From contig NZ_JAILYM010000008.1 of the NCBI RefSeq assembly GCF_020179425.1, positions 62,001-126,000 on the forward strand: DNA of 64,000 bases, read 5' to 3'. This DNA comes from Novosphingobium percolationis. GTDB lineage: Bacteria; Pseudomonadota; Alphaproteobacteria; Sphingomonadales; Sphingomonadaceae. Positions 29,955 through 44,644 of this stretch are shown piece after piece. The notes under the pieces are model-generated. The model worked only from the letters and a program-made list of their open reading frames with translations. It was not told the DNA's origin and searched no databases. How positions within the stretch are numbered: the first letter of the stretch is position 1; each line of letters begins with the position of its first letter. The translations under genes were made by a program, and so were the position numbers.

Positions 29955-30992
29955 TCAGCGGATGAGAACGGCCTCGATGGCGGCCACGTCCACATGGTCG
30001 CGCTCGGCGATCGCGACCAGCGTGGTGCGACGGGTTTCATCCGCGCGCCAGGGGCGATCGTACTGATGTCGCACGCGCGACCCCACCGCTTGCACCAGCA
30101 GTCGCATCGGCTTGCCCGTCACGGCGGCATGACCCTTCACGCGCAAGATGCGGTGATCGCGCGCCAGCGTTTCGATCCGGGCGACGAGGTCGGCCGGGTC
30201 GGAAATCTCGCCCAGCGTGACCACGGTGCTGTCGAAATCGTCGTGCTCGTGATCGTCCTCGCCGTCGTGGTGCGAGGGGCGCGCGTCGATGTCATCTTCG
30301 GCGGCGGCATCGAGGCCGAGGATCACGCGCGGATCGACCACACCGTCGACCAGCTCGATCACCGGCACGGGGCGGGGGGCCTCTGCAGCGATCACCGCGC
30401 GCGCGGCAGCGACGCCCTCCGGCCCTGCCAGGTCCACCTTGGTCAGCAGGACCATGTCGGCGCAGGCGAGCTGGTCCTCGAACACTTCGGACAGCGGGGT
30501 TTCGTGATCGATGCCCGGATCGGCCGCGCGCTGCGCGTCCAGCGCCGCCACATCGGGCGCGAACCGCCCCTCGGCCACGGCTTCCGCATCGGCCAGCGCC
30601 AGCACGCCGTCGACCGTGATCCGGCTGCGGATCGCGGGCCAGTCGAAGGCCTTGAGCAGCGGCTTGGGCAAGGCCAGCCCCGATGTCTCGATCAGGATGT
30701 GATCGGGACGCGGATCGAGCGCGAGCAGCTTTTCCACGGTGGGGATGAAATCGTCCGCCACGGTGCAGCAGATGCATCCATTGGCCAGTTCGACGATGTT
30801 TTCGGCCGGGCAATCGGGAATGGCGCACGACTGGAGGATATCGCCGTCCACGCCCAGCGTGCCGAATTCGTTGACCACCACGGCCAACCTGCGCCCCCCG
30901 GCATTGCGGATCAGGTGGCTGATGAGCGTGGTCTTCCCCGCGCCGAGAAAGCCGGTGACGATGGTGACGGGCACCTTCGAAAGATCGGACAC
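29955..30992 (-). CDS. cobW: CobW-family GTP-binding metallochaperone
   Basis: The 345-residue G3E GTPase has the P-loop VTGFLGAGKTTLISHL near residue 12, the thiol metal site NGCICCTVADDF, and a His/Asp-rich insert HHDGEDDHEHDDFD in the C-terminal half. CobW proteins are thought to deliver Co(II) to the cobaltochelatase. It is the first gene of the operon and directly precedes cobN, in keeping with that role. GTG 30992 is chosen because GGGAGAG stands about 6 nt upstream. The 190-nt leader carries the cobalamin riboswitch. Confidence 0.92.
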   Translation of the reverse strand: MSDLSKVPVTIVTGFLGAGKTTLISHLIRNAGGRRLAVVVNEFGTLGVDGDILQSCAIPDCPAENIVELANGCICCTVADDFIPTVEKLLALDPRPDHILIETSGLALPKPLLKAFDWPAIRSRITVDGVLALADAEAVAEGRFAPDVAALDAQRAADPGIDHETPLSEVFEDQLACADMVLLTKVDLAGPEGVAAARAVIAAEAPRPVPVIELVDGVVDPRVILGLDAAAEDDIDARPSHHDGEDDHEHDDFDSTVVTLGEISDPADLVARIETLARDHRILRVKGHAAVTGKPMRLLVQAVGSRVRHQYDRPWRADETRRTTLVAIAERDHVDVAAIEAVLIR

Positions 30993-31125
30993 GTACAACT
31001 CTCCCGCGCGCCAGAGCGAGACAGGGCGGGGCTTGCCGGACAGGTCCGGTCGGTGCGCGACGACGGGCGGGCGCGACGAAGCGCCCGTGACCACGCAACC
31101 CGTGCAGCCCCAGCCACACAGCTTC

Positions 31126-31184
31126 GTCGCTCAGACGGAGAGTTACCGTGCCGTGACCATCCCCTGGACCAAGGCAAGAGCGAC
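31126..31184 (-). promoter_or_regulatory. Expression platform of the cobW-operon riboswitch
   Basis: Downstream of the aptamer on the minus strand, GTCGCTC (31184-31178) can pair with GAGCGAC (31132-31126) around a 45-nt loop containing CCAGGGGATGG. The same pair with identical spacing occurs after the second riboswitch (34636-34694). No uridine run follows, so control by ribosome access or rho is more likely than intrinsic termination. Assignment is by conservation between the two copies. Confidence 0.6.
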
Positions 31185-31390
31185 CGGTGCGCCGGCAGGT
31201 CTCCTGGCTCGCGGGTCACAGCTTGATGCACGCCTTCCCAGACCGGCGCGTGCGCCGTCCAGTGGCTGCCCCTCGAAGGAGGCCAGTGCATCGCGCTATC
31301 CGCTTACAGTTGCAGGGACAGCCGCGGATTTGGGAAGGTTCGCTTCCCGCACCGCATTCCCGATTAAGCCCGTTTCCGGGCACCGGCGCG
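31185..31390 (-). promoter_or_regulatory. Cobalamin (AdoCbl-type) riboswitch upstream of the B12 operon
   Basis: On the minus strand the sequence runs through GGTGCCCGG...TTAATCGGGAA, GGCTGTCCCTGCAACTGTAA and GCCACTGG to the B12 box AGCCAGGAGACCTGCC (31209-31194), all hallmarks of cobalamin riboswitches. It lies 193 nt before the cobW start, so high cobalamin should lower expression of the whole cob operon. It occupies most of the gap between the NiCoT gene end and cobW. Confidence 0.95.
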
Positions 31391-31471
31391 ATCATGTGAA
31401 GGCCAAGCCAAGGCCATGCCTTCATGGGGCGATCTAGCGGGGTATCGCGGCCGATGCAATCACCTCGCAAG

Positions 31472-32536
31472 CTAAGGCGTCGTCGAAACCTCTATTTCGT
31501 CCAGCCGCTTCCAGCGATAGATGGCGAAGCTGGCCACCCAGCAGGCCACGAACAGGGCGATGATGGCAAAGCCAAGGCTGTTGAAATGCGTGCCCAGATC
31601 GGCGGCGAAGCTCCATGGCCAGCCGGTCAGCGCAAACCTGCTGCCGATCAGCGCAACCGTTTCGATGCCGCCGATCACGATCGCGACCGCTGCGGAAATC
31701 AGCGTGATGGTGATGTTGTAGTACAGCTTGCGGATCGGCTTCACGAACGCCCACTCATAGGCGCCGAGCATGACCACGCCATCGACCGTGTCGATCAGCG
31801 CCATGCCGGCGGCGAACAGCGCGGGCAGCACCAGGATGGTCGCAATGGAAAGGCCGTTGGCCGCCTGGCTGGCCGACATGCCAAGGATGGCGACTTCGGT
31901 CGCGGTATCGAACCCCAGCCCGAACAGGAACCCCAGCGGGGCCATGTGCCATGGCTTTGCCACCAGCCGGAACAGGCGCCCGAACACGCGCGACAGCACG
32001 CCGCGCGATCCGGTCAGGATGTCCAGATCCTCCTCGACGTAGGTTCCCCCGGCGCGGACGTGCCGGAACGTCCGCCAGACCGAGCGCAGGATCACGAGGT
32101 TCATCGCCGCGATGGTGAACAGGAACAGGGCAGAGGCCGATGTCGCGATCAGCGCGCCGATGTCCTTGAAGGCGCTGAACTGCGCCAATGCGGTCGTGGT
32201 CAGCGCAATGGTGGTCGATGCCACGGCGATGATCGCGGAGTGCCCGATGGCGAACCAGAACCCGACCGAGATCGGGCGCTGGCCCTGCTGCATCAGCTTG
32301 CGGGTGACGTTGTCGATGGCGGCGATGTGGTCGGCGTCGACCGCATGGCGCAGGCCCAGCCCCCAGGCCAGCAGCGCCGTGCCGAGCATCAGCGGCTGTG
32401 CATGAAACAGGCTGAACGCCCACATCCACGCCAGCAGGTTGGCGCCGACCAGCCCGGCAAACAGCCAGCCGATCCTGCGGCGAAGGGAAGGGGTGGAAGC
32501 CGGAGCGCGGTCGCGCGGCTTGAGAAGCGCGGCCAT
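31472..32536 (-). CDS. NiCoT-family nickel/cobalt permease
   Basis: The 354-residue polytopic inner-membrane protein belongs to the HoxN/NixA (NiCoT) family. The signature RHAVDADHIAAIDNVTRK lies in helix II, with FWFAIGHSAIIAV, LGFLFGLGFDTATEVAIL and FAAGMALIDTVDGVVMLGAY also conserved. Co-regulation with the corrinoid receptor by a cobalamin riboswitch indicates Co(II) as substrate. The start ATG 32536 overlaps the receptor stop by one base (TGATG). Confidence 0.92.
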   Translation of the reverse strand: MAALLKPRDRAPASTPSLRRRIGWLFAGLVGANLLAWMWAFSLFHAQPLMLGTALLAWGLGLRHAVDADHIAAIDNVTRKLMQQGQRPISVGFWFAIGHSAIIAVASTTIALTTTALAQFSAFKDIGALIATSASALFLFTIAAMNLVILRSVWRTFRHVRAGGTYVEEDLDILTGSRGVLSRVFGRLFRLVAKPWHMAPLGFLFGLGFDTATEVAILGMSASQAANGLSIATILVLPALFAAGMALIDTVDGVVMLGAYEWAFVKPIRKLYYNITITLISAAVAIVIGGIETVALIGSRFALTGWPWSFAADLGTHFNSLGFAIIALFVACWVASFAIYRWKRLDEIEVSTTP

Positions 32537-34548
32537 CAGAAGTTGACCTTTGCGCCAAAGCGCAGCGTTCGCGGTTCCACCACGCGGCTCAATCGACCGG
32601 CCGCAGGGCCATCGGCATCAAAGGCCGGGATATAGGATTCGTAGTAGTAGGCGATGTCCTTGTCCTTGCTGGCCAGCACGTTCAGCACTTCGCCGTAAAG
32701 CTCGATGCGTTTGCCGGTCCATGCGGCGCGGGCATTGACCACCGTGCTGCCGCGATCGCGGATGCTGTTGTCCTCGATCAGCGGCGAAGGCCCGAGGTGG
32801 CGGACCCGTACACTGGCCTTCCAGGGGTCAAGGATCACGGCCACGCTTGCCGACGCGGCGCCTTCAAAGGCATTGGGGATGTGGTCGCCGTTGTCGTAGC
32901 GCGCATGGCTGATGGTGTAGTTGCCATCCAGCGCAAGCCATGGAAGCGCCCGCCAGAAGGCCGTGGCCTCATACCCTTTGCGGCGGCTGGCCCCCGACGG
33001 TTCCACCGCGTTGGAATCGCCGACGAAGCGGAGTTCGCTGTCCACGCCCAGCCACCAACGGGTCAGTGTCAGCGTTACGCCGGAAAACTGCGCCCGCGCG
33101 CCCAGTTCGCGACCCGATCCGCGTACCAGCGCCGGAACCGGCGTTGTCGCGTTGACGGTGCCGCGCACGTCGTTGGAGTGAAAGCCACGCCCCCAGTTGC
33201 CATAGACTTCCAGATGCGGTGTCACGGCCCAGGACACAGACGCCTTGGGCGAGACCAGGAATGCCGATCCATCCCCCTGGCCCAGCGCCGCCGCGGCGGC
33301 ATCGCGCGCCTTGATGGAATAGCGGTAGTAGTCGCCACGCAGGCCGCCCGTCAGGCGCAGTCCGGCCATCGGTGCCCAGGTCGCTTCGCCATAGAGCGCG
33401 GTCGACAGTTCCTTGACCCGGTAGTGGCCCAGCGATGCCAGGAACCGCCGGTCGACCGTCCGGTTCACGCCGACGTTGCCGATCGCATCGTACCGGCTCT
33501 CGATGCCGGTCGACAGCGTCAGCGCGGGGCCGATCGACCAGTTCTTCTGTGCGGTAAGCCCCATGATCCAGCGCTGGTCGAATTGCGCGATCTGCGCGCT
33601 GGTCCCGTCGGGATCGGCATAAGTCGGGTTGGAGAACATCGACCAGTCGTAGAACTGGGCATAGGCGTTGGCGTGCCATGTCGGCTGCTGCACCGCAATG
33701 TTGCCGATCAGGCGCGTGGTCTCGCCCCGCGCGGATGGATCGGGCGAGCAGAACACGTCGGGGCAGAGCGGTGTGCCGATGATGCGCTCGGGGATTTGCT
33801 CGGTCGGCCGCCATGTGGCGCGATAGGCGTGCAGCGATGCTTCCAGCGTTCCCTTGCCTGCCGGCGCTCGATACTTGGCGAAGCCGGCATAGTGGCGCAG
33901 CCGCTCGGGCTCCTGCCATGGTCCGTCATAGATCTTGGCCTGTCCCACCAGCGTCAGGTCGCCTGCGCCCAGATGGTGCATGGTTCCGCCCGCCGCCAGC
34001 CTGCGCCAGCCATACGAACCGCTTTCAAGCGAGGCCCAAGGCCGATCGTACCCGTCAACGGTAGCCATGTACGCGGCTCCGGCCAGCGCCAGATCGCCGC
34101 CATCGGCGCGATAGGGGCCTTTGCGGAAGTCCTCGCGGGCGATGACTTCGGGGATCAGGCCATTGAGATCGAGGTAGCCTTGCCCGTGCCCGTGCGTGCG
34201 AAAGTTCATCTGCACGCCGTCGATATAGGTGGTGAAGTCCGATCCGTGGTCGAGGTTGAAGCCGCGCAGGAAGTACTGGTTGGCCTTGCCGCTGCCGGAA
34301 TGCTGCGCAGCGACCATGCCGGGCACGGCCTCCAGCAGTTCGGCCACGCGCAGCAGCGGGCGCACGAGCAGGTCGGCCCCGCCGACGCTGCCTTCGCTTG
34401 CGGCATGGGCGGTGCCGATCTTGGTTTCGCCGCGTCCGAACACGACGATGCCGGCGGCTGCCGCGTCGTCTTCGGCTGCGTTGGCAGGGCATGGCGTGGT
34501 GCAGAGGGACAGCGCCAGCGCGCTGGCGGGAAGAATGGGCTTGATCAC
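32536..34548 (-). CDS. TonB-dependent receptor under cobalamin riboswitch control (probable corrinoid or cobalt receptor)
   Basis: The 670-residue outer-membrane protein has a signal peptide (to about PANAAEDD), a TonB-box-like GIVVFGRGE, a plug (LLRVAELLEAVPGMVAAQHS; NQYFLRGFNLDHGSDFTTYI) and a 22-strand-type barrel ending in the aromatic LRFGAKVNF. Start GTG 34548 is chosen for its position before the signal peptide. Sequence alone resembles general sphingomonad TonB receptors; the riboswitch and the coupled cobalt permease argue for uptake of corrinoid or a cobalt chelate. Confidence 0.9.
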   Translation of the reverse strand: MIKPILPASALALSLCTTPCPANAAEDDAAAAGIVVFGRGETKIGTAHAASEGSVGGADLLVRPLLRVAELLEAVPGMVAAQHSGSGKANQYFLRGFNLDHGSDFTTYIDGVQMNFRTHGHGQGYLDLNGLIPEVIAREDFRKGPYRADGGDLALAGAAYMATVDGYDRPWASLESGSYGWRRLAAGGTMHHLGAGDLTLVGQAKIYDGPWQEPERLRHYAGFAKYRAPAGKGTLEASLHAYRATWRPTEQIPERIIGTPLCPDVFCSPDPSARGETTRLIGNIAVQQPTWHANAYAQFYDWSMFSNPTYADPDGTSAQIAQFDQRWIMGLTAQKNWSIGPALTLSTGIESRYDAIGNVGVNRTVDRRFLASLGHYRVKELSTALYGEATWAPMAGLRLTGGLRGDYYRYSIKARDAAAAALGQGDGSAFLVSPKASVSWAVTPHLEVYGNWGRGFHSNDVRGTVNATTPVPALVRGSGRELGARAQFSGVTLTLTRWWLGVDSELRFVGDSNAVEPSGASRRKGYEATAFWRALPWLALDGNYTISHARYDNGDHIPNAFEGAASASVAVILDPWKASVRVRHLGPSPLIEDNSIRDRGSTVVNARAAWTGKRIELYGEVLNVLASKDKDIAYYYESYIPAFDADGPAAGRLSRVVEPRTLRFGAKVNF

Positions 34549-34635
34549 GATACGAAGTGCTCCGGCATCTTGCGACTGAACCGGACGCCCGCGCGCGCGA
34601 CGTTGCCGTCGCCCGACGAGTGCCGGTGGTTGAAC

Positions 34636-34694
34636 GTCGCTCAGACGGAGTTCACCGTGCCTTGGCCATCCCCTGGGCCAGGGCAAGAGCGACC
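34636..34694 (-). promoter_or_regulatory. Expression platform of the receptor-operon riboswitch
   Basis: GTCGCTC (34694-34688) and GAGCGAC (34642-34636) on the minus strand can pair around a 45-nt loop with CCAGGGGATGG, matching position for position the arrangement after the cobW riboswitch. It lies 88 nt before the receptor GTG. Pairing and conservation are seen; the switching mechanism is inferred. Confidence 0.6.
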
Positions 34695-34915
34695 AGACGC
34701 CGGCAGGTCTCCTGGCTCGCGGGTCATCGCTTGATGCATGCCTTCCCAGGCCTCGCATGGTTCTGCGTCCGGCCCAGTGGCTACTTCCCCGTGATTCCAG
34801 GGGAAGCGGTTGCATCGCGCTCGCCGCTTACAGTTGCAGGGACAGCCTCGGCTTCGGACCGGCACGAAGCCGATCCTCACCGCGTTCCCGTTTAAGCCCT
34901 TTCGGGCACCGGCGC
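34695..34915 (-). promoter_or_regulatory. Cobalamin riboswitch upstream of the receptor/NiCoT operon
   Basis: Reading the minus strand: GGTGCCCGAAAGGGCTTAAA, CCGAGGCTGTCCCTGCAACT, GCCACTGGGCC and the B12 box AGCCAGGAGACCTGCC (34718-34703). These match the cobalamin riboswitch consensus. It should repress corrinoid/cobalt uptake when cobalamin is plentiful. Confidence 0.95.
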
Positions 34916-35519
34916 GATCATTTGTGCCTGCGGAATGTCGCCGCAGGCAGGGGGTGTCTAGTTGAAATGATAAGCGATGCAAGCCCGCATCGCCTGCCTG
35001 CGCGCGCGCTCGCGCTGCCCGTGCGCTGTCACGAACGGCTGCGGTCGTATGCGCCCTTGGAGCGCGTTGTCCGCATTTAGTGAACGTTTGCTACAGCCGC
35101 GCGCGATGAAAAAAGGCTTATCTTTCTATGTTTTTGCCACTCCATGGAGTCCCCTTCAGTCCGTGGCGGTTGATTGGGCGCGCCAGACCGTTTGGCCTTG
35201 CTGGCAGCCTGGGATGCCGCGGTGTCGCCTGGCTAAGGATGAATGATGTTGAGCCGATTGTGGGGGACGGCGTCCAGAAATCTAGGGGCTGCTCACTCTG
35301 GCCCGGCCAACGGGTCATGGCCTGATCGTAAGAACGCAATCGGAGTCGCAAATTTCTGCGTTCCGGAAGTCACGGATGAGCCTGCGCGCGCCAGGCCGCA
35401 GGGTTGGATTGCGTGATCCGGGGTTGGCGGCATTAGACACATTTAGATACGATTCAGCAACAAGATATTGCGAACGATTATCAATCTCGTTAGGAGGGCG
35501 GGACTCGAAGGGGGATTGA
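34916..35519. other. Intergenic region between divergent operons
   Basis: This 600-bp stretch separates the minus-strand riboswitch leader from the plus-strand porin gene and must hold both promoters. No gene-like frame, tRNA or intrinsic terminator was found. The one notable element is the Fur-like sequence near 35471-35490, listed separately. Base composition is lower in GC than the flanking genes. Confidence 0.6.
35471..35490 (+). promoter_or_regulatory. Possible Fur/iron-responsive site
   Basis: GCGAACGATTATCAATCTCG partly resembles the alternating NATWAT pattern of Fur boxes (GATTATCAAT core), about 30 nt upstream of the porin ATG. Match is partial and no -35/-10 could be fixed, so this is a suggestion only. 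Confidence 0.25.
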
Positions 35520-36908
35520 ATGAAGAAGATCGCAGCACTGCTCGCGGCGACATGCCTGGCGACCGCCACGCCTGCGATCGCCGCAGACGTTTCGCTCGAA
35601 GCGCAGGTCGCGCAGCTCAAGGCGCAAGTGGCAGCACAGAACGAGCTGCTGGCATCGCAGGCCGCGCGCCTCGAACAGATCGAGGCGCGGTTGCGGGCGG
35701 CATCCGAACCCGCGCAGTCGCTCGCTGTTGCGGCGCCCCCGGTGGTCGATCAGGGCACGACGCCAGCCTCCGCGCCGACGCAGGCGCTGGCGGTCAATGC
35801 CGGCAGGGCCGGATCGGGCGCAGCCTTTGGCTCCGACACGACGATCGGCGGCTATGGCGAGATCACCTACAACGGTTACCTCAAGGACAGCAGCCGCAAC
35901 CAGGCCGACCTCAAGCGGCTTGTGTTATTCGTCGGCCACCGCTTCAGCGACAAGTTGAGCTTCACCAGCGAGATCGAGGTGGAACACGCGGTCGCCAGCG
36001 CCGGGGACGAGGGCGAGGTCGCCATCGAGCAGGCCTATCTCGACTATGCGATCAATTCGTCGCTGAACCTCAAGGCCGGCCTGTTCCTGATGCCGTTCGG
36101 CTTCCTCAACCGCAGTCACGAGCCGCCGGTGTTCTATGGCGTCGAACGCAACGAGGTCGAGACGCGGATCATCCCGTCGACATGGCGCGAAGGCGGCGTG
36201 AGCCTCTATGGCAGCACGCCGTTCGGGCTGAACTACGACGTGGGCGTGACGACCGGCTTCGATATCGCCAAGCTCGACGATGCGGGCGCGCCGCTTGCCG
36301 GATCGCACCAGGAATTGCAGCTGGCCAAGGCGTCGAACCTGTCGTTTTACGGCTCGCTGGAATATCAGGGCGTGCCCGGCCTGCTTGTCGGCGGGGCAGT
36401 GTTCAGCGGCAATGCCACGCACAACAACGCCGATTTCAAGGCGGACAACGCCCTGCCAGACTTCTCCGGGATCACGTCGCGCATCACCTTGTGGGACGTG
36501 CATGGCCGCTGGCAGCACAAGGGCTTTGACTTCCAGGCGCTTTATGCGCGCGGGACGGTCAGCCGCGCCGCCGCGCTCGATGGCGTGGTCGCCGCCTACA
36601 ACGCGGCCAACGGCACCGTTCTGACGCTGGCGCCTTCGGCCTTCTACGGCTGGTACGCGCAAGGTGCGTACAGCATCGCGCTGGGCGGCGAGGCGACGCT
36701 CGACCCGTTCGTGCGCTACGAGAAGTTCGACACGCAGGCCGTGCTGCCGCTGGGCCTGTTGTCCGATCCCGTAAACCGCGACCGGGTGCTGACGACGGGT
36801 CTGTCGTTCCACCCGCTGCGCTCGGTGGTGGTCAAGGTAGATTATCAGAAATTCTTCCAAAACAAGGACAACAACCGGTTCAATTTGGGCCTTGGCTACA
36901 TGTTCTGA
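35520..36908 (+). CDS. Outer-membrane porin with N-terminal coiled coil (OprP-like)
   Basis: The 462-residue protein has a signal peptide (MKKIAALLAATCLATATPAI, cleaved after IAA), a heptad-rich segment AQVAQLKAQVAAQNELLASQ, a Pro/Ala linker, and a 16-strand-type barrel ending LGLGYMF with terminal Phe. The barrel (GYGEITYNGYLK; IPSTWREGGVSLYGSTPFGL) resembles phosphate-selective-porin-like proteins common in sphingomonads. GGAGGG lies just before ATG 35520. It starts a five-gene plus-strand cassette with flavin-related genes. The permeant is unknown. Confidence 0.85.
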   Translation: MKKIAALLAATCLATATPAIAADVSLEAQVAQLKAQVAAQNELLASQAARLEQIEARLRAASEPAQSLAVAAPPVVDQGTTPASAPTQALAVNAGRAGSGAAFGSDTTIGGYGEITYNGYLKDSSRNQADLKRLVLFVGHRFSDKLSFTSEIEVEHAVASAGDEGEVAIEQAYLDYAINSSLNLKAGLFLMPFGFLNRSHEPPVFYGVERNEVETRIIPSTWREGGVSLYGSTPFGLNYDVGVTTGFDIAKLDDAGAPLAGSHQELQLAKASNLSFYGSLEYQGVPGLLVGGAVFSGNATHNNADFKADNALPDFSGITSRITLWDVHGRWQHKGFDFQALYARGTVSRAAALDGVVAAYNAANGTVLTLAPSAFYGWYAQGAYSIALGGEATLDPFVRYEKFDTQAVLPLGLLSDPVNRDRVLTTGLSFHPLRSVVVKVDYQKFFQNKDNNRFNLGLGYMF

Positions 36909-36925
36909 TCTGAAGGTTTTTCCCG

Positions 36926-37843
36926 ATGCACAATATTGATGGACGGTCCTGCCGCGGCTTGCGGACGGGAATGCTGGCTGGTGCCTGCGCAATGCTGCTG
37001 CCTACGGCGGCTTATGCCGACGAGAACCTCTTCGGCTATAACACCGGCGCGGAGACGCTACCCAAGGGATCCGGTGAAATCTACGTGTTCAACACGCTGC
37101 GCACCGACAAGGGCCAGGGGACATACAAGGCGCTCGATACCGAAATCGAAGGGGAATACGGCGTCACCGACCGGATCACGCTGTCAGCGGCGGCGAGCTT
37201 CCTCACTATCGACACGCACGGCCTGCTGATCGATGGCTATCTGCCGGCGGCGATCGACAAGGGCCCGCGCTTTTCGGGCATCGAGGCCAAGGCCAAGTTC
37301 AACGTGCTGAGCCCGGCGCTCGACAACTTCGGGCTGGCGGTCATCACCTCGGCCGAGGTCAAGAAGCTCGATCCGCACAGTGGGCAGGACAAGACCGAAT
37401 ATGAAGGCAAGGTCGTTCTCGCCGCGCAGAAGTATTTCCGGCAAGGGCAGATCGTGTGGGTCGCCAACCTGGGGCTGAAGGCCGGGCACGAAACCCGCAA
37501 GGCGATCGCCAACCTGCCGGACGGCTTCGACTGGCCGACCACGCCGGAAATGGAAATCGAACTGTCGGCGGGCACGGGCCTGACGTACCGCGTGGCGCCC
37601 AACTGGTTTGTCGGCGCGGAAACGCAATATACCTCGGAATACGAGACCGAGGTCGGGCAGGAGCGCTGGTCGCTGTTCGCGGGGCCGACAATCCATTATG
37701 GCGGGCAGAAGTTCTGGGCGACAGCGACATGGTTTCCGCAGCTCAAGGGCGGGGGCGAGCGCTATCCGGGGCAGACTGGCAACCTGCACCTGATCGAAAA
37801 GACCAAGACCGAGTTCCGGCTGAAGCTGGGCATGAATTTCTGA
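36926..37843 (+). CDS. Outer-membrane beta-barrel protein (DUF6662-like)
   Basis: The 305-residue protein has a signal sequence (about residues 15-36, ending AYA), then DENLFGYNTGAETLPKGSGE and alternating amphipathic strands ending with FRLKLGMNF, a terminal-Phe barrel signature. The N-terminal LFGY...ETLPKG pattern resembles proteins I associate with DUF6662, but this match is from memory. It begins 17 nt after the porin gene and precedes the FMN-binding gene by 11 nt, so the three are probably one operon. Function is unknown; an outer-membrane partner for electron transfer or metal binding is possible. Confidence 0.75.
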   Translation: MHNIDGRSCRGLRTGMLAGACAMLLPTAAYADENLFGYNTGAETLPKGSGEIYVFNTLRTDKGQGTYKALDTEIEGEYGVTDRITLSAAASFLTIDTHGLLIDGYLPAAIDKGPRFSGIEAKAKFNVLSPALDNFGLAVITSAEVKKLDPHSGQDKTEYEGKVVLAAQKYFRQGQIVWVANLGLKAGHETRKAIANLPDGFDWPTTPEMEIELSAGTGLTYRVAPNWFVGAETQYTSEYETEVGQERWSLFAGPTIHYGGQKFWATATWFPQLKGGGERYPGQTGNLHLIEKTKTEFRLKLGMNF

Positions 37844-37854
37844 GGAGTCGCATC

Positions 37855-38406
37855 GTGTCACATCGCAACTGGCCCGTGCTGGCCGCGCTTCCCGTCCTGG
37901 CGGTCGTTGCGGCCCCCGCATGGGCCGCCGACTATCTGACCGTCGAGCAGGCCCAGCACGCGCTCATCCCGCAAGCGCAGGCGTTCACCGCCATTCCGCT
38001 GACGCTGACCCCGGCCCAGATGACACGAATCCGGCAGATGTCGGGCACGCCGCAGCGCACCGCGCAGCCCAGGGTGTGGCGCGCGCAGCGCGGCGCGGCG
38101 ATGCTCGGCTGGATCATCGTGGACGAGGTGATCGGCAAGCACGAATTCATCACTTATGCGACCGGAATTTCGCCCGATGGCCACGTGCTCGGCGTCGAGA
38201 TCCTGAGCTATCGGGAATCCAAGGGCGGGCAAGTGCGCGACCCGCGCTGGCGCGACAGGTTCCGGGGCAAGACGCTGGCCGATCCGTTCCGGCTCAATCA
38301 GGACATCCCCAACATCTCCGGGGCAACCCTGTCGAGCCGCAATGTGACCGACGGGGTCAAGCGCCTGCTGGCGATCCACGCTGTGGCGCTGGCCCACGCG
38401 GGCTGA
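37855..38406 (+). CDS. Periplasmic FMN-binding-domain protein with flavinylation motif
   Basis: The 183-residue exported protein (signal peptide ending PAWA) carries an FMN_bind-type domain. Near the C-terminus SGATLSS matches the D/S-G-A-T-x-S/T motif in which ApbE attaches FMN to Thr. EFITYATGISPDGHVLGVEI and SYRESKGGQVRDPRWRDRF are typical of RnfG/NqrC-like domains. GTG 37855 follows GAGGAG by 8 nt. The next gene encodes ApbE. The protein is inferred to be a covalent flavoprotein carrying electrons outside the cytoplasmic membrane. Confidence 0.88.
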   Translation: MSHRNWPVLAALPVLAVVAAPAWAADYLTVEQAQHALIPQAQAFTAIPLTLTPAQMTRIRQMSGTPQRTAQPRVWRAQRGAAMLGWIIVDEVIGKHEFITYATGISPDGHVLGVEILSYRESKGGQVRDPRWRDRFRGKTLADPFRLNQDIPNISGATLSSRNVTDGVKRLLAIHAVALAHAG

Positions 38407-38420
38407 TTGCTGCGCCGCGC

Positions 38421-39251
38421 ATGATGACCCGCTGCCGCCCGCTGCTGGGTACGTTCGTCGAGATCACGACCCCGGAGGGGCACGTATCGGCGGTGGACGC
38501 GGCCTTTGCGGCCATCGCACATGTGCACGCGCGCATGTCGTTCCATCGGGACGACAGCGATCTGGCGCTGCTGCGGAAGGCCAGCGCGGGCGATGTGGTA
38601 CGCCTCGATGCCGAGACGGTCCGGGTGCTGCGCCTCGCGCTGGACCTGCACGGACAAAGCGGTGGCCTGTTCGATGTGGCGGTGGCGGGCCCGGCGCTTG
38701 TCCGCAGCGGGTTCCTGCCGCGCTGCGACATCGCGCGACTTTCCGACTATCGCGGCACCAGCGCCGACCTTGCCATCCTTGATGACCAGCACGTGCGCGT
38801 GGAAAAGTGCGTACTGGTCGATCTGGGCGGCATCGCCAAGGGCCATGCCGTGGACCTTGCCGTGGATGTCCTGCAAGGCATGGGCGTGCCCGAAGGGCTG
38901 GTGAACGCAGGTGGCGATCTGCGCGCGTTTGGCGATCGGGATTGGCCGGTGGCGCTGCGCGATGCTGACGATATTGCGCGCATTTCGGTGGCCGCGCGCC
39001 ATTGCGCCATCGCCAGCTCGGCCAATCTCCTCAACCGCCGTCGCCATCGCGGGCAGCCGCAGTCGCCGCATATCGGCGTGCAGGGGCGTTCCGTGCTGTG
39101 CGACGAGCGTGTCACCGTGGTCGCGCCCCTGTGCGCCATCGCCGACGCCATGACCAAGGTCGCCATGGCCGATATGCCCCTCGCGCAGCGCCTTCTGACC
39201 ACCTGCGGCGGCCATGTCCTGCAAACGCCACACCACGAAAGTCATACCTGA
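38421..39251 (+). CDS. apbE: FAD:protein FMN transferase ApbE
   Basis: The 276-residue protein has the ApbE pattern: TRCRPLLGTFVEITTPEG, VHARMSFHRDDSDLALLRK, LFDVAVAG, VLVDLGGIAKGHAVDLAVD, VNAGGDLRAFG, and DAMTKVAM carrying the metal-binding Asp. It transfers FMN from FAD to Thr of target proteins such as the preceding gene product. ATG 38421 (or 38424) lies 14 nt after the FMN-binding gene. No obvious signal peptide is seen, unlike most ApbE; export may be Tat-independent or the start may differ. Its stop shares TGATG with the next gene. Confidence 0.9.
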   Translation: MMTRCRPLLGTFVEITTPEGHVSAVDAAFAAIAHVHARMSFHRDDSDLALLRKASAGDVVRLDAETVRVLRLALDLHGQSGGLFDVAVAGPALVRSGFLPRCDIARLSDYRGTSADLAILDDQHVRVEKCVLVDLGGIAKGHAVDLAVDVLQGMGVPEGLVNAGGDLRAFGDRDWPVALRDADDIARISVAARHCAIASSANLLNRRRHRGQPQSPHIGVQGRSVLCDERVTVVAPLCAIADAMTKVAMADMPLAQRLLTTCGGHVLQTPHHESHT

Positions 39252-39700
39252 TGGTTCATCGTCGATCGGCCAAACTGGCGTCCTGGCAGATCTGGCTGCT
39301 CGCGCTCAGCGGCATGGGCCTCTGGCTGTCGGGCTGCGGGTGGCTGCTGCTGCACTATTATGGCCAGAAGCAGGGAGAGTTCGGGCCCGAGATGAACCCC
39401 GTCGAACCGTGGATGATGAAGGCGCACGGGCTGTTCCTCATCCCGGCGCTGCTGGGCATCGGCGGGATGTTCATTGCTCACATTCCCAAGGGCTGGGCAC
39501 ACCGGCATCAGCGGATCGCCGGGGTCGCGCTGTGTGTTGTTCTCGCCGCGCTGATCGCGAGCGGGTACATGCTGTACTACGTCGGCGACGAAGACTTGCG
39601 GGCCTGGACCAGCCTTGCGCACTGGACGATCGGCCTCGGCCTGCCGGTGGTCTTCCTTTGGCATTACCTCAACGGCCTCCGCGCGCGTCGCCGGATCTGA
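39251..39700 (+). CDS. Four-helix membrane protein, putative b-type cytochrome (DUF4405-like)
   Basis: The 149-residue protein has four predicted membrane helices. Helix 2 (HGLFLIPALLGIGGMFIAH) has His at both ends and helix 4 (HWTIGLGLPVVFLWH) likewise, an arrangement expected for two stacked b haems, as in DUF4405/cytochrome b561-like proteins. Coupled to apbE by a TGATG junction, it is a good candidate for the transmembrane electron donor to the FMN protein. Haem binding is inferred from histidine positions only. Confidence 0.75.
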   Translation: MVHRRSAKLASWQIWLLALSGMGLWLSGCGWLLLHYYGQKQGEFGPEMNPVEPWMMKAHGLFLIPALLGIGGMFIAHIPKGWAHRHQRIAGVALCVVLAALIASGYMLYYVGDEDLRAWTSLAHWTIGLGLPVVFLWHYLNGLRARRRI

Positions 39701-39725
39701 CGAAGAGTTTTAGTCGTCGACCAAT

Positions 39726-39738: not shown

Positions 39739-39791
39739 CAGCAGTCACTTTGCCCTTGGCAGCGACGTCGAAACCGGCGATTCTAGATGTC

Positions 39792-40703
39792 ATGCAATCC
39801 GGTCGCAACCATCTTCCCGAAGGCAAGCGGCGCGAACTCGCGCACGTGGTCGATACCGTACGCGCCGGCTTTGCCGCAGCGATCGCGCATAGGACGCAGC
39901 CGCGCTATCGGATGGGCAAGCTGCTCAAGATCGTTCTGTTTGGGTCCTATGCTCGCGGAGACTGGGTGGAAGATCCGGTGGGGCGCTACTTTTCCGATTA
40001 TGACCTGCTTGTGGTCGTGAACCATGACGATCTCACCGACATTGCCGAGTTCTGGGAAGCCACCGAGAACCGGCTGCTGGCCGACCTGTCTGCTGGCACG
40101 GTCCTGCGCACGCCGGTCAGCCTCATTTACCACAGCCTCGATGACGTAAATGAGAAGCTCCGGCTTGGCCGGTACTTTTTCATGGACATCCTCAAGGATG
40201 GCATTGTCCTGTTCGAGGAACCGGGTTTCTCCTTTGCAGAGCCGCTCCCGCTGTCGCGCGAGCAGGCGCTGCGGGAGACGCAGGACTACTTTGATGACTG
40301 GTTCAAGAGCGCTACGAACTTCGAGACTTTAGCGAAAAGCGCGCAAACAAACGGCATGCCCAAGGAGGCGGCGTTCCTCTTTCACCAAGCGGTCGAGCGG
40401 TTCTACCACTGTCTCTTCCTCGTTCGCACGCTCTGGTCACCCAAATCTCACAATCTCAACCGCCTCAGGGATATGGCCGAGGAACTTGAGCCAACATTGA
40501 AGGATGTCTGGCCGCGAACAGGGCGCTTCGAGAAGCGATGCTATGCCCTGCTGCGCGATGCCTATGTGAAGGCAAGGTATGCGCCATCGTACCGCATTAC
40601 GGCGGACGAACTCGCTTGGATCGCCGGGAGGGTGCAGGTGCTTCAGGCACTGGTGGAGAGCGCCTGCGAGGCACGCATCGAGGATCTTGTCAGAGCAGCC
40701 TGA
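39792..40703 (+). CDS. Nucleotidyltransferase-HEPN fusion protein
   Basis: The ~303-residue protein has an N-terminal MNT nucleotidyltransferase (VLFGSYARGDWVEDP, then YFSDYDLLVVV supplying the catalytic GS and DxD-type acids, about residues 45-77) and a C-terminal HEPN-like helical domain (FLFHQAVERFYHCLFLVRTL, KSHNLNRLRDMAEEL, about residues 180-225). Separate HEPN and MNT proteins form toxin-antitoxin pairs in which MNT AMPylates the HEPN RNase; here both sit in one chain. ATG 39792 is used, although an in-frame TTG at 39750 exists. It could be a self-neutralised toxin or a defence protein. Confidence 0.82.
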   Translation: MQSGRNHLPEGKRRELAHVVDTVRAGFAAAIAHRTQPRYRMGKLLKIVLFGSYARGDWVEDPVGRYFSDYDLLVVVNHDDLTDIAEFWEATENRLLADLSAGTVLRTPVSLIYHSLDDVNEKLRLGRYFFMDILKDGIVLFEEPGFSFAEPLPLSREQALRETQDYFDDWFKSATNFETLAKSAQTNGMPKEAAFLFHQAVERFYHCLFLVRTLWSPKSHNLNRLRDMAEELEPTLKDVWPRTGRFEKRCYALLRDAYVKARYAPSYRITADELAWIAGRVQVLQALVESACEARIEDLVRAA

Positions 40704-40991
40704 CGTGACGTCCGGTTCTTCACGGCGGCCGGTTGCGACCGCTTGCCCGTGTCCAAAGAACATCCCCTTCCGAGACTGAAACACGCCCCTGTCCGAAGCC
40801 GGAGAGGACACGCAACCCGCGCCGATGCGTACCGTGTTGCCGCGCCTTGCGCGGCTGCCCGCACCACTCCTTCCGGCGGGGTTTCCCTGCGCTGCGCTCC
40901 GGTGCGGTCCCCTCCGCCCCCGGACCTTTCGGGGCTCAGTCGAAGGGATGGTCCCTTGGACACTCAGCAGAGCAACGACAAGGAAATCCCT

Positions 40992-41405
40992 ATGAAGAAC
41001 ACCGTCATCCTCGCAGGCTTCGTCGGCAGCAATCCGGAAGTCCGCACCACCCAGAATGGGGCTTCGATCACCAGCCTCTCCATCGCCACCACTCGCAGCT
41101 TCAAGGATGTCGAAGGTCATCGCCAGACCGAGACCGAATGGCATCGGATCACCTGCTTCAACGGCGTCGGCAAGTCAGTGGCAGAGCACGTTACCAAGGG
41201 CGCCCTGGTCATGGTCACGGGCCGCATCCACTACACCCGCTGGACAGACAAGAACGGACAGTTCCGCTACGGCTGCGAGATCATCGCCGAGCAGGTCGAC
41301 TTCCTCGCCAAGGCGAAGGAGAAAGCAGCAGGCGATGCCGAACTCCCGCTGGAGGAAACCGCGGAACCGGCTCCTGCCAGGTCCACCCGGCGGCGCTCGA
41401 AGTAG
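40992..41405 (+). CDS. ssb: Single-stranded DNA-binding protein, plasmid type
   Basis: The 137-residue OB-fold protein starts MKNTVILAGFVGSNPEVRTT and has TEWHRITCFNGVGKSVAEHV and VMVTGRIHYTRWTDKNGQFR, clear SSB core motifs. AAGGAAA precedes ATG 40992. The C-terminus (PARSTRRRSK) is basic and lacks the acidic DDDIPF-like tip used by chromosomal SSB to recruit partners. An ssb copy near oriT is common in leading regions of conjugative elements. The 290 bp before it contain no recognised gene. Confidence 0.92.
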   Translation: MKNTVILAGFVGSNPEVRTTQNGASITSLSIATTRSFKDVEGHRQTETEWHRITCFNGVGKSVAEHVTKGALVMVTGRIHYTRWTDKNGQFRYGCEIIAEQVDFLAKAKEKAAGDAELPLEETAEPAPARSTRRRSK

Positions 41406-41437
41406 CGCCGCTTCGATCACCATACCGATCCCAAACC

Positions 41438-41471
41438 GGCCCCGGCGGACCCATCCGCAGGGGCCTTTTTT
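41438..41471 (+). terminator. Intrinsic terminator after ssb
   Basis: GGCCCC (41438-41443) and GGGGCC (41460-41465) form a stem immediately followed by TTTTTT, 33 nt beyond the ssb stop. It isolates ssb from the mobilisation operon. Confidence 0.8.
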
Positions 41472-41479
41472 CTGTCTAG

Positions 41480-41969
41480 TTTCCCCCCCTCCAGATCGCG
41501 TTGAAGCGACGTTGGCAGCGCCTTTTGAAGACGCTGACTCTCTTGGTAATTTGCCCCCTCGAGATGGCTATTTGGTAGCCAGGACGGAACAAAGCCGGAA
41601 AATCTGCTTCCGGCCTACTCGCCTTTCAACGCCCTCCGGGCTATAGGTGCTGCCGGAAAGCCCCGGTTTTCTGGCATTTCCGTCAAGAATCGCAACCCCC
41701 GTGCACAGGCCCTCTGAAGCTGTTTTGGAAGGCACACCGTACACGGCGGGGCCGTCGTCAAAGAACGGCAGAAATCCGCCATTTTGCCGCCCTTTGCCTT
41801 TGCTGCAGCCCGCTGCAGTTCACCGGCTTCTCTCGCAAGGTGCTGAATTTACGCCATTTCCGGCTGCTGTCGGCTGCAGCCCGATTTCGGTTCGACAGCA
41901 TCTCGGCAGCGGCGTAGGATCGGCGCTGCGATTACCGAAACCACGTTCCCTCAAGGCAAGGGAACGCTG
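41480..41969. other. Candidate origin of transfer (oriT) region
   Basis: This gene-free 490 bp precedes the trwABC-like genes, the place oriT occupies in R388. At 41638-41647 the minus strand reads CCTATAGCCC, matching the CT/ATAGCCC around the R388 nick site. Nearby are inverted repeats GCCGGAA/TTCCGGC (about 41594-41614) and CGTTCCCT/AGGGAACG (41944-41966), the last touching the ribosome binding site of the first gene. Pyrimidine-rich and CTGCAG-containing repeats fill the rest. oriT function is inferred. Confidence 0.55.
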
Positions 41970-42260
41970 GTGAAGACCTTCAGGGATGTGGGCGTCTCGC
42001 TCGCGCAGGACCAGTTCGCACGGATCGACGCGCTGGCTTCAGGCCTTGGCATGTCGCGCTCGGCCATCATCCGCCAGCTGATCGATGTGGGGCTCCCGTT
42101 CGTCGAGGCCGGGCACGGCGTCAACGTCACGCGCCTCATCGCAATCATTGAAAGTACGCAGGCCGCGACCGACCGGTTGCTCACCCTGGCCGACCCCGAA
42201 TTCGCCGAGCGGCTGCCCGCGCTCACTATCGAGCGGCTCAAGGCCTACCACGATGCGTGA
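41970..42260 (+). CDS. Ribbon-helix-helix relaxosome accessory protein (TrwA-like)
   Basis: The 96-residue protein has an N-terminal ribbon-helix-helix (FRDVGVSLAQDQFARIDALA, GMSRSAIIRQLIDVGL), the DNA-binding fold of TrwA/MobC-type accessory proteins, and a helical C-terminus for oligomerisation. GTG 41970 follows AAGGGAA. It overlaps the coupling-protein gene by 8 nt. By analogy with TrwA it should bind oriT, help the relaxase nick and repress its own operon, possibly through the inverted repeat at 41944-41966. Confidence 0.8.
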   Translation: MKTFRDVGVSLAQDQFARIDALASGLGMSRSAIIRQLIDVGLPFVEAGHGVNVTRLIAIIESTQAATDRLLTLADPEFAERLPALTIERLKAYHDA

Positions 42261-44640
42261 GCGCGGCATCCGCTTCGATGGCCGCCCTGCCACGGTCCAG
42301 CACCACTCGGCGCGGGGGCGGGTGATCCGCAACGCCGGCCACTTCACGCGCGGCTCGCAGCTGCTGACGCACGAAGTGCTGATGACCTGGCAGGGGGTGA
42401 AGCTGCCGCTGGTGATCGGCTTCTTCGCCTTCACGATCCTCGCCTCGCTGATCCTGACCTTCCACATGGAGGACCACGAGATCCAGCTCGTGCTGATGAA
42501 GCTCTATGCGCTCGCCTGGGACATGGTCGATTTTGACCCCACCCACGTGATCAATCTGACTCTGCCCTCGGACCACGTCATTCGGGTGCCGATGGGGGCA
42601 GTCCCCTACAACAGTGCGGTCCGCATCGCCTGGGCCAAGGCCATGCACTGTGCGTTCGCCGCCGCGATCGGCGCGGCGTTCCTCACGATCCCGCTCTCGA
42701 TCTGGTTCGTCGATGTGTCGCGTCGGCGCGGGATCGAGATCCTCAAAGAACGCCACGAGCGCGGCGCTATGCTGGTCGAGCGGTCCGTCCTCCTGCGCGA
42801 AATCGCCGCGCACAACCATGCCGAGCTGGCGCGCGAGCTTGCCCGGATCGATCCACGCCTTGATGCCGCACGGGTTGCGACGACCTCGCCAGCGCGGCGG
42901 CTCGCCATGGGTGTGCCCGCACCCTACGACATGGCCGGTGTTCCATTCCCCTGGCGGCTCGAGCAGAGCCACGCGATGTTGATCGGCACGACCGGTGCGG
43001 GCAAGACGACGCAGTTGCGCTCGATCGTCGCGCAGGCGCGCGAGCGGGGGCACCGCTGTGTGATTTTCGATCTGACCGGCGCTTTCGTCGAGAGCTTCTA
43101 CGATCCTTCGCGCGACCACATCCTCAATCCGATGGACGAGCGTTGCCCGCCCTGGACGATCTTCAACGACTGCGCGAACTATGCCGACTTCACTGCCGCT
43201 GCCGCCGCGCTCATCCCGAGCGATGGCGGCAATGCCGAACCCTTCTGGGCGATGGCCGCGCGCACCCTGTTCGTCGAGATGTGCGTGAAGCTCGCAGAAG
43301 CCGGCCTCACCTCCAACGGCGCCATCGCCCATCACCTGATGCACGCCGATCTGTCCGCCGTGCACCGGATGCTCGAGAATACCATCGCCGATCCCCTGAC
43401 CGCCACCCAAGCCGCGCGCATGGCGGAATCGATCCGGGCGGTGTTCAACACAAATGCACAGGTCATCCGCTTCCTGCCCGATCCGGTCGAAGGCGGGTTG
43501 GCGCCGTTCTCGATCAACGCGTGGATGCGCGCGGAAGCGCGCGATGGCGGGATCCTCTTCATCACCTCGACCCATACCGACCTCACACTCAATCGCGCGC
43601 TGCTGACGCTGTGGATGGACATGGCGGTCAACGCGCTGATGCGGCTCGAGCGCACCCGCGACTTGCGCACCTGGTTCCTGTTCGACGAGGTCCATGCGCT
43701 CCACCGCCTGCCCGCAATCGAGCATGGCCTACAGACCGCGCGCGCCTTTGGCGGTGCGTTTGTGTTGGGCATGCACAGTTTCGACAAGCTTGCAGAAACC
43801 TACGGCGAGCAGGGCGCCATCAACCTCGCCGCATTGGCGCGGACCAAACTGATCCTCTCGACCGCCGACATGGAAACCGCGCGGGTATGCGCCGAGTTCA
43901 TCGGCAACCGCGAAGTCCGCGAGATGGATGAGGCCTATTCCTACGGCTACAACAACACCCGCGATGCCTCGACCCTGACGCCGCGTACCGAGGTCAAGCC
44001 GCTCGTCATTCCCGACGACATCATGAATCTCCCTGCGCTCTACGGTTTCCTCAAGTTTCCCGACGGGTTCCCGGCCACGCGCATCCGCCTTGCCTGGCGC
44101 GACTATCCGGCCGTGGCCGAGCCCTGGCGACGACGCGCCAGCCTGAGGCCCGCGCCTTTTGTGCCGCCGGGCGGCAGCGCCGCGCCTGCGGAAGGGGAGG
44201 GCGGCGTCGAACCCGTGCCTGCGCGGACTGGAGCGGAGTTGCGTGCAGTGGCGGGGCAGATCGTGCCCGAGGAACGCGCCCGTCTGACCGATGACCTGTT
44301 CACCGCGGCCGACCGGCGCGAGGTGACCGCGGGCGAGCGCGAAACCGATACGCGCGCTGCCGGCGAACCGGATAACCCAAGCCAGCCAGAAGCGGGCCTC
44401 GCCGGACTCATCGGCAACATGCGTTCGCAAAGCACGGGGGAGCCGCGCCTTGCCGACAGCGCGCGCGATGCCGCGATCGGCAGGCGAGCCGGGATCGCAG
44501 CGTCCCGCAAGGTGCCCGAGCAGCTCGCGGCGCGCGAGGAACAGCTGGGTTTCGACTACACCGACCGCCACGCGCGGCGGGGGCACGACGCGTCCGAGGT
44601 GGGCCTCGGCAGCGACGACGGTCCGGGCATCGGGGACTGA
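42253..44640 (+). CDS. Type IV coupling protein (TrwB/TraD-like)
   Basis: The 795-residue ATPase has two N-terminal membrane helices (about residues 45-70 and 125-150), the Walker A MLIGTTGAGKTTQLRSIVAQ near residue 250, and the Walker B WFLFDEVHALHRLPAIEHGL. The C-terminal 150 residues are charged and probably disordered. Coupling proteins recruit the relaxase-DNA complex to the mating channel and pump DNA. ATG 42253 overlaps the accessory gene; the relaxase begins 4 nt after its stop. No type IV secretion genes are in the window. Confidence 0.92.
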   Translation: MRERGIRFDGRPATVQHHSARGRVIRNAGHFTRGSQLLTHEVLMTWQGVKLPLVIGFFAFTILASLILTFHMEDHEIQLVLMKLYALAWDMVDFDPTHVINLTLPSDHVIRVPMGAVPYNSAVRIAWAKAMHCAFAAAIGAAFLTIPLSIWFVDVSRRRGIEILKERHERGAMLVERSVLLREIAAHNHAELARELARIDPRLDAARVATTSPARRLAMGVPAPYDMAGVPFPWRLEQSHAMLIGTTGAGKTTQLRSIVAQARERGHRCVIFDLTGAFVESFYDPSRDHILNPMDERCPPWTIFNDCANYADFTAAAAALIPSDGGNAEPFWAMAARTLFVEMCVKLAEAGLTSNGAIAHHLMHADLSAVHRMLENTIADPLTATQAARMAESIRAVFNTNAQVIRFLPDPVEGGLAPFSINAWMRAEARDGGILFITSTHTDLTLNRALLTLWMDMAVNALMRLERTRDLRTWFLFDEVHALHRLPAIEHGLQTARAFGGAFVLGMHSFDKLAETYGEQGAINLAALARTKLILSTADMETARVCAEFIGNREVREMDEAYSYGYNNTRDASTLTPRTEVKPLVIPDDIMNLPALYGFLKFPDGFPATRIRLAWRDYPAVAEPWRRRASLRPAPFVPPGGSAAPAEGEGGVEPVPARTGAELRAVAGQIVPEERARLTDDLFTAADRREVTAGERETDTRAAGEPDNPSQPEAGLAGLIGNMRSQSTGEPRLADSARDAAIGRRAGIAASRKVPEQLAAREEQLGFDYTDRHARRGHDASEVGLGSDDGPGIGD

Positions 44641-44644
44641 CGCG

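Follow-up and report, generated by a model that had tools for sequence, protein, structure and literature searches.

Gene content and conservation of the cassette

In a 64,000-nucleotide (nt) stretch of a Novosphingobium percolationis contig, which we call the window, a tandem run of five plus-strand genes at 35520-39700 forms a candidate flavin-based electron-transfer cassette. They encode a porin, a DUF6662 protein, an FMN_bind protein that would carry flavin mononucleotide (FMN), the flavin transferase ApbE and a small cytochrome-like membrane protein (Table 1). The first four genes are separated by 17, 11 and 14 nt, and the ApbE and membrane protein genes overlap by one base in a TGATG; an earlier sequence-only reading of the window had already placed all of this correctly. 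The Pfam matches of the first four proteins are all above the curated cut-offs (Porin_O_P 5.7e-7, DUF6662 1.2e-83, FMN_bind 1.4e-10 and ApbE 2e-35), and the ApbE gene adjoins that of an FMN_bind protein with a flavinylation motif. A second copy of all five genes, with 94.8% DNA identity, is found elsewhere in the same genome (L016:9691-13962). The two copies are homologous over 35431-39702, starting 89 nt before the porin gene and ending 2 nt past the last stop codon, and the flanks of the second copy differ from those in the window.

Table 1. Features of the cassette in window coordinates
Feature	Position	Strand	Remarks
Fur-type palindrome TGCGAACGATTATCA	35469..35483	+	Begins 51 nt before the start codon of the porin gene; candidate site of a class enriched in relatives
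Porin_O_P-like outer-membrane porin, 462 aa	35520..36908	+	Pfam; optional cassette member, 9/31 non-redundant loci
DUF6662 protein, 305 aa, predicted barrel of the outer membrane with 12 strands	36926..37843	+	Pfam and model; 26/31 non-redundant loci
Exported FMN_bind (RnfG/NqrC-like) protein, 183 aa, GTG start	37855..38406	+	Probable flavinylation site Thr158, codon 38326-38328
ApbE flavin transferase, 276 aa, without N-terminal signal, probably cytoplasmic	38421..39251	+	Pfam
Four-helix membrane protein, 149 aa, probable two-haem b-type cytochrome	39251..39700	+	Invariant His 59, 77, 124 and 138

For the comparison with other genomes, loci were collected from a search for DUF6662 in Sphingomonadales, from a profile of the cytochrome-like protein in Pseudomonadota, from named genomes (six loci) and from plasmid matches (four). 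This resulted in 31 non-redundant loci, of which 21 were found via the cytochrome gene, nine via DUF6662, where a barrel is present by construction, and one is the window itself; the near copies L010, L011, L016, L040 and L044 and the remnant L032 stand outside this set. A predicted outer-membrane barrel accompanies the FMN and cytochrome-like genes in all 31 loci. DUF6662 alone is present in 22, porin and DUF6662 together in four, a porin alone in three and a porin without ApbE in two, so that apbE is kept in 29. When only the non-redundant loci found through the cytochrome gene are considered, 21 of 22 have both the FMN protein and a barrel, the exception being the truncated remnant L032. 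DUF6662 is found in 12 of 396 Sphingomonadales genomes (our own genome counted), and the order DUF6662, FMN protein, ApbE, cytochrome is kept in all 11 others. The cytochrome-like profile matched 14 of 398 Pseudomonadota genomes, again with our own counted; in the 13 other genomes each of the 14 loci contains the FMN protein and a barrel, and 12 of the loci also contain ApbE. In Ideonella dechloratans (L034) a porin occupies the place held elsewhere by DUF6662.

Such an arrangement is far beyond chance, with the same order in other Pseudomonadota and in the second copy. The synteny across the 31 loci also shows that a barrel genuinely belongs to the unit, and the link between barrels and redox genes made in the sequence-only reading is thereby borne out. 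Its further idea of a pair of outer-membrane barrels as part of the system does not hold in general, as both are present in only four of the 31 loci and two barrels together are the exception. In 26 of 34 same-strand loci, near copies counted, the ApbE stop codon and the nearest in-frame start of the cytochrome gene share one or four bases (distances of 0 or -3), which suggests that the two genes are translationally coupled.

Some loci depart from the usual arrangement. L064 and L068 are porin-FMN-cytochrome versions without apbE; the cytochrome gene of L064 is on the opposite strand, and L068 lies beside FTR1. On plasmid p4 of Novosphingobium sp. ES2-1 the truncated cytochrome remnant (L032:10001-10351) lacks the barrel, the FMN protein and ApbE, and adjoins ferritin-like, siderophore receptor, PepSY and cobalamin synthesis genes. 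In I. dechloratans (L034:4196-7142) the porin-FMN-ApbE-cytochrome series follows genes whose annotations are a two-component system and a cytochrome c peroxidase.

The redox proteins and the barrels

The 149-residue membrane protein is probably a two-haem b-type cytochrome. Its AlphaFold model has four helices (residues 2-37, 51-76, 84-110 and 114-148) with a moderate mean predicted local distance difference test (pLDDT) score of 67.9. All 18 aligned relatives keep histidines 59, 77, 124 and 138; further invariant residues are G28, R88, Y109, Y110 and G128, and H35 is not conserved. Mean net charges are +2.8 at the N-terminus, +3.7 in the loop that joins helices 2 and 3 and +3.3 at the C-terminus, against -2.3 and -1.2 in the remaining two loops. 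By the positive-inside rule, both termini and the second loop would therefore be inside, with H59 and H124 towards the periplasm and H77 and H138 towards the cytoplasm, an arrangement that would suit two stacked bis-His haems.

Pfam cytochrome families match the window's protein below threshold only (Sdh_cyt 0.0012, Ni_hydr_CYTB 0.0026). When 18 family members were searched with E-values up to 0.1, Ni_hydr_CYTB was found in 10 (best E 1.1e-6) and DUF4405 in five (best 0.0067). The fold matches to the model include cytochrome b6 with a Z-score of 10.4 (root mean square deviation 4.0, 139 residues aligned) and the designed two-haem protein 4D2 with 9.8 (3.2, 104 residues), values that helical bundles reach by arrangement alone; b561 is also among the matches, and unrelated helical bundles are found at similar Z. 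Foldseek gave no match to the model at E 0.001 or better, and the profile of the protein found no solved relative by sequence (best E 0.24). The fold matches are thus compatible with a cytochrome and not proof of one. The earlier suggestion that the genes form a flavin-based unit for electron transfer, with a membrane protein that probably binds two haems, is supported.

The motif SGATLSS covers residues 155-161 of the FMN protein, and a flavinylation-type motif is found in all 18 aligned FMN proteins, with Thr158 as the probable flavinylation site in the window. The profile of the FMN protein matches RnfG (9eri_G, E 3.1e-11). The N-terminus of the window's FMN protein includes a hydrophobic stretch (mean of 2.82 over 12 residues), and by a crude hydrophobicity rule 28 of 36 FMN proteins, near copies counted, have an export-like N-terminus; those of L043, L045 and L065 have an RR motif like that of twin-arginine (Tat) signals. 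ApbE shows no hydrophobic stretch before its conserved N-terminal motif in 34 of 34 loci, near copies counted and with inferred start codons. According to a review, most ApbE proteins seem to be secreted and cytosolic ones exist (PMC12052999). As ApbE lacks an export signal, the simplest reading is that the FMN protein is probably flavinylated in the cytoplasm before export, which would be a puzzle for Sec substrates.

By eye, the window's porin has an N-terminal signal and a coiled-coil-like stretch. The DUF6662 model has 12 strands with a mean pLDDT of 69.6, and its Foldseek list is headed by OmpC/OmpT-type porins, the COG4313 channel and FapF, the latter two with the best TM-scores. The DUF6662 profile found no solved relative by sequence. 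We also considered whether the barrels themselves might be flavinylated and rejected this, as no motif was found in the window's porin or DUF6662 protein, or in any of 17 aligned DUF6662 sequences.

Regulation, neighbouring genes and possible function

The cassette promoter has a candidate Fur-type site. The Fur consensus half-sites considered are the textbook TGATAAT and the pseudomonad-type TGAGAAT. Matches to the palindrome TGAGAAT-N-ATTCTCA upstream of the cassette were ranked against those upstream of neighbouring genes in 29 non-redundant loci, L045 and L063 being excluded because the contig ends there. The palindrome has a mean rank of 0.147, better than all 209 letter permutations of the half-site, and 12 of 14 matches are reached in 10 of the 29 loci compared with a mean of 0.05 for the permutations. 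The z-scores of the ranking are 6.59 for the pseudomonad form, 6.27 for the textbook consensus and -1.04 for a GC-richer palindrome. Two Fur-family proteins are encoded in our genome, where 11 places fit the degenerate motif with at most one mismatch. Two of them are the cassette copies, and three are one-mismatch sites that closely precede two PepSY_TM genes and a TonB receptor gene. In the 4 kb around feoB the best site has 12 of 14 matches and lies at the start of the small preceding gene (feoA by eye).

Iron is also a theme of the gene neighbourhoods in some loci. From about 305 listed frames, 39 flanking genes were picked by position and size and searched in Pfam. The porin-FMN-cytochrome series of L068 lies beside FTR1, a cupredoxin, a Fer4_5 protein, a ferritin-like protein and an OprB porin; in L070 the cassette is preceded by DUF1513, imelysin (M75), DHOR and a further imelysin (M75); L013 has PepSY_TM and two TonB receptors nearby, and L015, L031 and L045 a TonB receptor. 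The Fur-like sites together with these neighbours favour iron as the substrate, which the sequence-only reading had named as a possible extracellular or periplasmic acceptor.

We consider it fairly likely that the cassette is a flavin-based reductase module which acts in the periplasm, serves iron assimilation and is repressed by Fur. The haems, the flavin, the direction of the electrons and the substrate are proposed as follows. Quinol or another inner donor would reduce the lower haem of the four-helix protein (H77/H138), and the electron would cross the membrane to the upper haem (H59/H124) and from there pass to an FMN attached covalently at Thr158 in the exported FMN protein, the latter having probably been flavinylated in the cytoplasm by the signal-less ApbE. 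The reduced FMN protein would then reduce Fe(III) chelates in the periplasm and Fe(II) would enter via Feo. The barrels, whether DUF6662, porin or both, might pass small chelates or a diffusible electron carrier through the outer membrane. A further possibility, quite unlikely in our view, is a flavin counterpart of the porin-cytochrome conduits, in which the FMN protein, charged in the cytoplasm by ApbE and exported with its flavin bound, would dock at the DUF6662 barrel and pass electrons to iron located at the outer membrane or immediately within it.

Several observations weigh against the iron reductase interpretation. The cytochrome model is only moderate, and its fold matches are within the range of common helical bundles. 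The textbook half-site TGATAAT was equalled or beaten by one of 139 permutations, and an AT-rich scrambled palindrome also ranks high (mean rank 0.241, z 4.83, against 0.147 and 6.59 for the pseudomonad form), so that part of the Fur-site signal is base composition. With a refined, degenerate pattern, chosen after the first listing, 18 of the 31 loci have a site at 13 of 14 (0.68 expected) and 21 at 12 of 14 (2.69 expected), which leaves 13 loci without a site at 13 of 14 and 10 without one even at 12 of 14. Because this pattern was picked after the first scan, the promoter scans with the refined pattern and with the textbook consensus against random windows are partly circular, and the permuted half-site test is the fairer one. 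Six of the 11 motif places in our genome are not beside a recognised iron gene; Pfam on the neighbours of three of these six gave a glucokinase, a glutamate dehydrogenase and no match. The exact motif has four distinct places in the genome, two of which are the cassette copies, and no recognised iron genes were found at the other two. The iron genes came up among the one-mismatch sites, in a list of neighbours that omitted minus-strand genes whose start lies over 160 nt downstream of a site. Furthermore, most of the 39 flanking genes searched in Pfam have no link to iron.

Fur-type sites would fit another role as well. Under iron limitation the flavin protein might feed some other periplasmic enzyme in place of cytochrome c, without itself reducing iron. 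The lack of an iron transporter in the cassette would agree with such an iron-sparing electron supply, as would the gene annotated as cytochrome c peroxidase just upstream in L034. We regard it as unlikely, since the constant outer-membrane barrel would be hard to explain, no recurring periplasmic oxidoreductase is found among the 39 flanking genes, and haem would still be needed if the membrane protein is a cytochrome. The barrel in 31 of 31 loci, nine of which were barrel-selected, is reminiscent of porin-cytochrome conduits and would agree with a respiratory route outward, by way of barrel and FMN protein, with Fe(III), humics or electrodes as acceptors. Such dissimilatory or extracellular transfer of electrons seems improbable to us: by reading, none of the five proteins has a CXXCH motif, the 12-strand barrel model is probably too narrow for the FMN domain, and the Fur-type sites and iron-uptake neighbours suggest assimilation.

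The sequence-only reading had also considered a cobalt(III)/corrinoid reductase serving the neighbouring uptake genes. On the minus strand, 29955-34926 contains genes for a CobW-like GTPase, a NicT-like cobalt/nickel transporter and a TonB receptor (by eye). Two cobalamin riboswitches lie in it on the same strand, at 31177-31402 and 34685-34926, and it is probably a B12-controlled cobalt uptake region. A TonB receptor, a cobalt transporter and cobalamin riboswitches also lie next to the cassette in N. olei (L011), and a NicO transporter and a TonB receptor are near it in I. dechloratans L034. This transporter and that of the window are only 27.6% alike over 196 residues, and L034 has no match to the window's TonB receptor and no cobalamin riboswitch. 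We reject the cobalt function as very improbable on synteny and transcription direction. The cobalt operon is divergent, with the riboswitches on its own strand, and the cassette is not downstream of a cobalamin riboswitch; at high identity the operon is common only to N. olei; its proteins were not found in the 19 kb fetched around the second copy, and the homology between the copies excludes it. No cobalamin riboswitch was found in seven of eight relatives scanned, and the site at the cassette promoter is of Fur type.

The cassette lies on a 155-kb contig of a 4.3-Mb genome, for which the nearest named relatives found belong to Novosphingobium, and the sequence downstream resembles sphingomonad plasmids, the best match being p4 of Novosphingobium sp. 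ES2-1 with MobF relaxase, HEPN and SSB genes (29% query coverage, 79% identity). Judged by this match and by eye, 39750-47623 contains a HEPN/nucleotidyltransferase-like gene, SSB, a type IV secretion DNA-binding protein and a MobF-type relaxase, that is a conjugative plasmid-like backbone adjoining the cassette. In Novosphingobium sp. KCTC 2891 (L010) the cassette is followed by a response regulator, a histidine kinase and an 880-residue protein without a Pfam match, and the frames downstream of the second copy are similar in size to these. Two long proteins near the cassette gave no Pfam match at the thresholds used, L010:8839-11481 (880 aa) and L063:7090-9444 (784 aa).

Comparison with known flavinylation systems

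The closest functional parallel may be found in the PepSY-like/DUF2271 systems. The Caulobacter PepSY/DUF2271 operon (CC_3059-3063) is Fur-repressed (PMC3751524), and its mutants lose fitness in ethylenediaminetetraacetic acid (EDTA; PMC11870441). These systems have in common with what is predicted for our cassette the Fur control, a flavinylated periplasmic protein, ApbE, a membrane protein of a haem-binding family and a proposed role in iron reduction (PMC8238504, PMC11870441, PMC3751524). The cassette differs in having an FMN_bind protein, a four-helix cytochrome-like family, DUF6662 or a porin, and an ApbE without a signal, and Pfam gave no match at E up to 1 to PepSY_TM, DUF2271 or DUF4198 in its five proteins. 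Most likely it works like the PepSY/DUF2271 iron-reduction systems but stands outside that group, because its cytochrome-like protein, flavoprotein and barrels are different.

The DUF4405 and FezC cytochromes, which a 2024 paper adds to the flavinylation systems, are likewise membrane proteins with four conserved histidines in apbE clusters, and purified DUF4405 showed haem b spectra (PMC11334425). Six helices are described there for DUF4405, whereas our protein has four and a different flavoprotein partner. DUF4405 has no match at E up to 1 in the window's 149-residue protein and a weak one in five of 18 relatives (best E 0.0067). The FMN protein resembles the RnfG/NqrC subunits in its RnfG profile match and flavinylation-type motif, but it scores below the NCBIfam cut-offs and no other Rnf or Nqr subunit is found in the cassette. 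In L068 the flavin protein beside the iron permease FTR1 recalls the P19/FTR1-associated FMN proteins (PMC8238504), but this neighbour occurs in one locus of 31, one without apbE, and the cassette itself has no permease. For the barrel, the COG4313 channel (4rl8) and FapF are near folds of the DUF6662 model, with TM-scores by query of 0.57-0.58 and up to 0.59 respectively, yet identities in those rows are 7-15% and DUF6662 is its own Pfam family. The absence of CXXCH further separates the cassette from the Mtr-type porin-multihaem-cytochrome conduits, and the ApbE without export signal, with a hydrophobic stretch in 0 of 34 loci, from the usual ApbE-dependent systems.

A 2021 census assigns flavinylation clusters to ten systems and discusses clusters without a known membrane module (PMC8238504). 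The words porin, beta-barrel, DUF6662, b561, PF01292 and PF07396 are absent from its main text. Neither DUF6662 by name nor the gene combination was found among the papers listed in the literature searched, with supplementary tables and most subscription papers outside its scope, and a published table may contain the cluster without comment. Elsewhere in our genome, L017:4917-9979 contains DsbD-like, ApbE, DUF3570-like and thioredoxin-like genes (ApbE by Pfam, the rest by eye) and resembles one system of the census.

If our interpretation is true, the cassette would be a further module among the flavinylation-based electron-transfer systems. It would give DUF6662 a first functional context and provide a context for the four-helix cytochrome-like family, whose member in the window has no Pfam match above threshold. 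In several lineages of Pseudomonadota it would also connect a flavin redox protein with a barrel of the outer membrane. The ApbE without a signal finally raises the question whether a covalently flavinylated protein can be exported with its flavin already in place.

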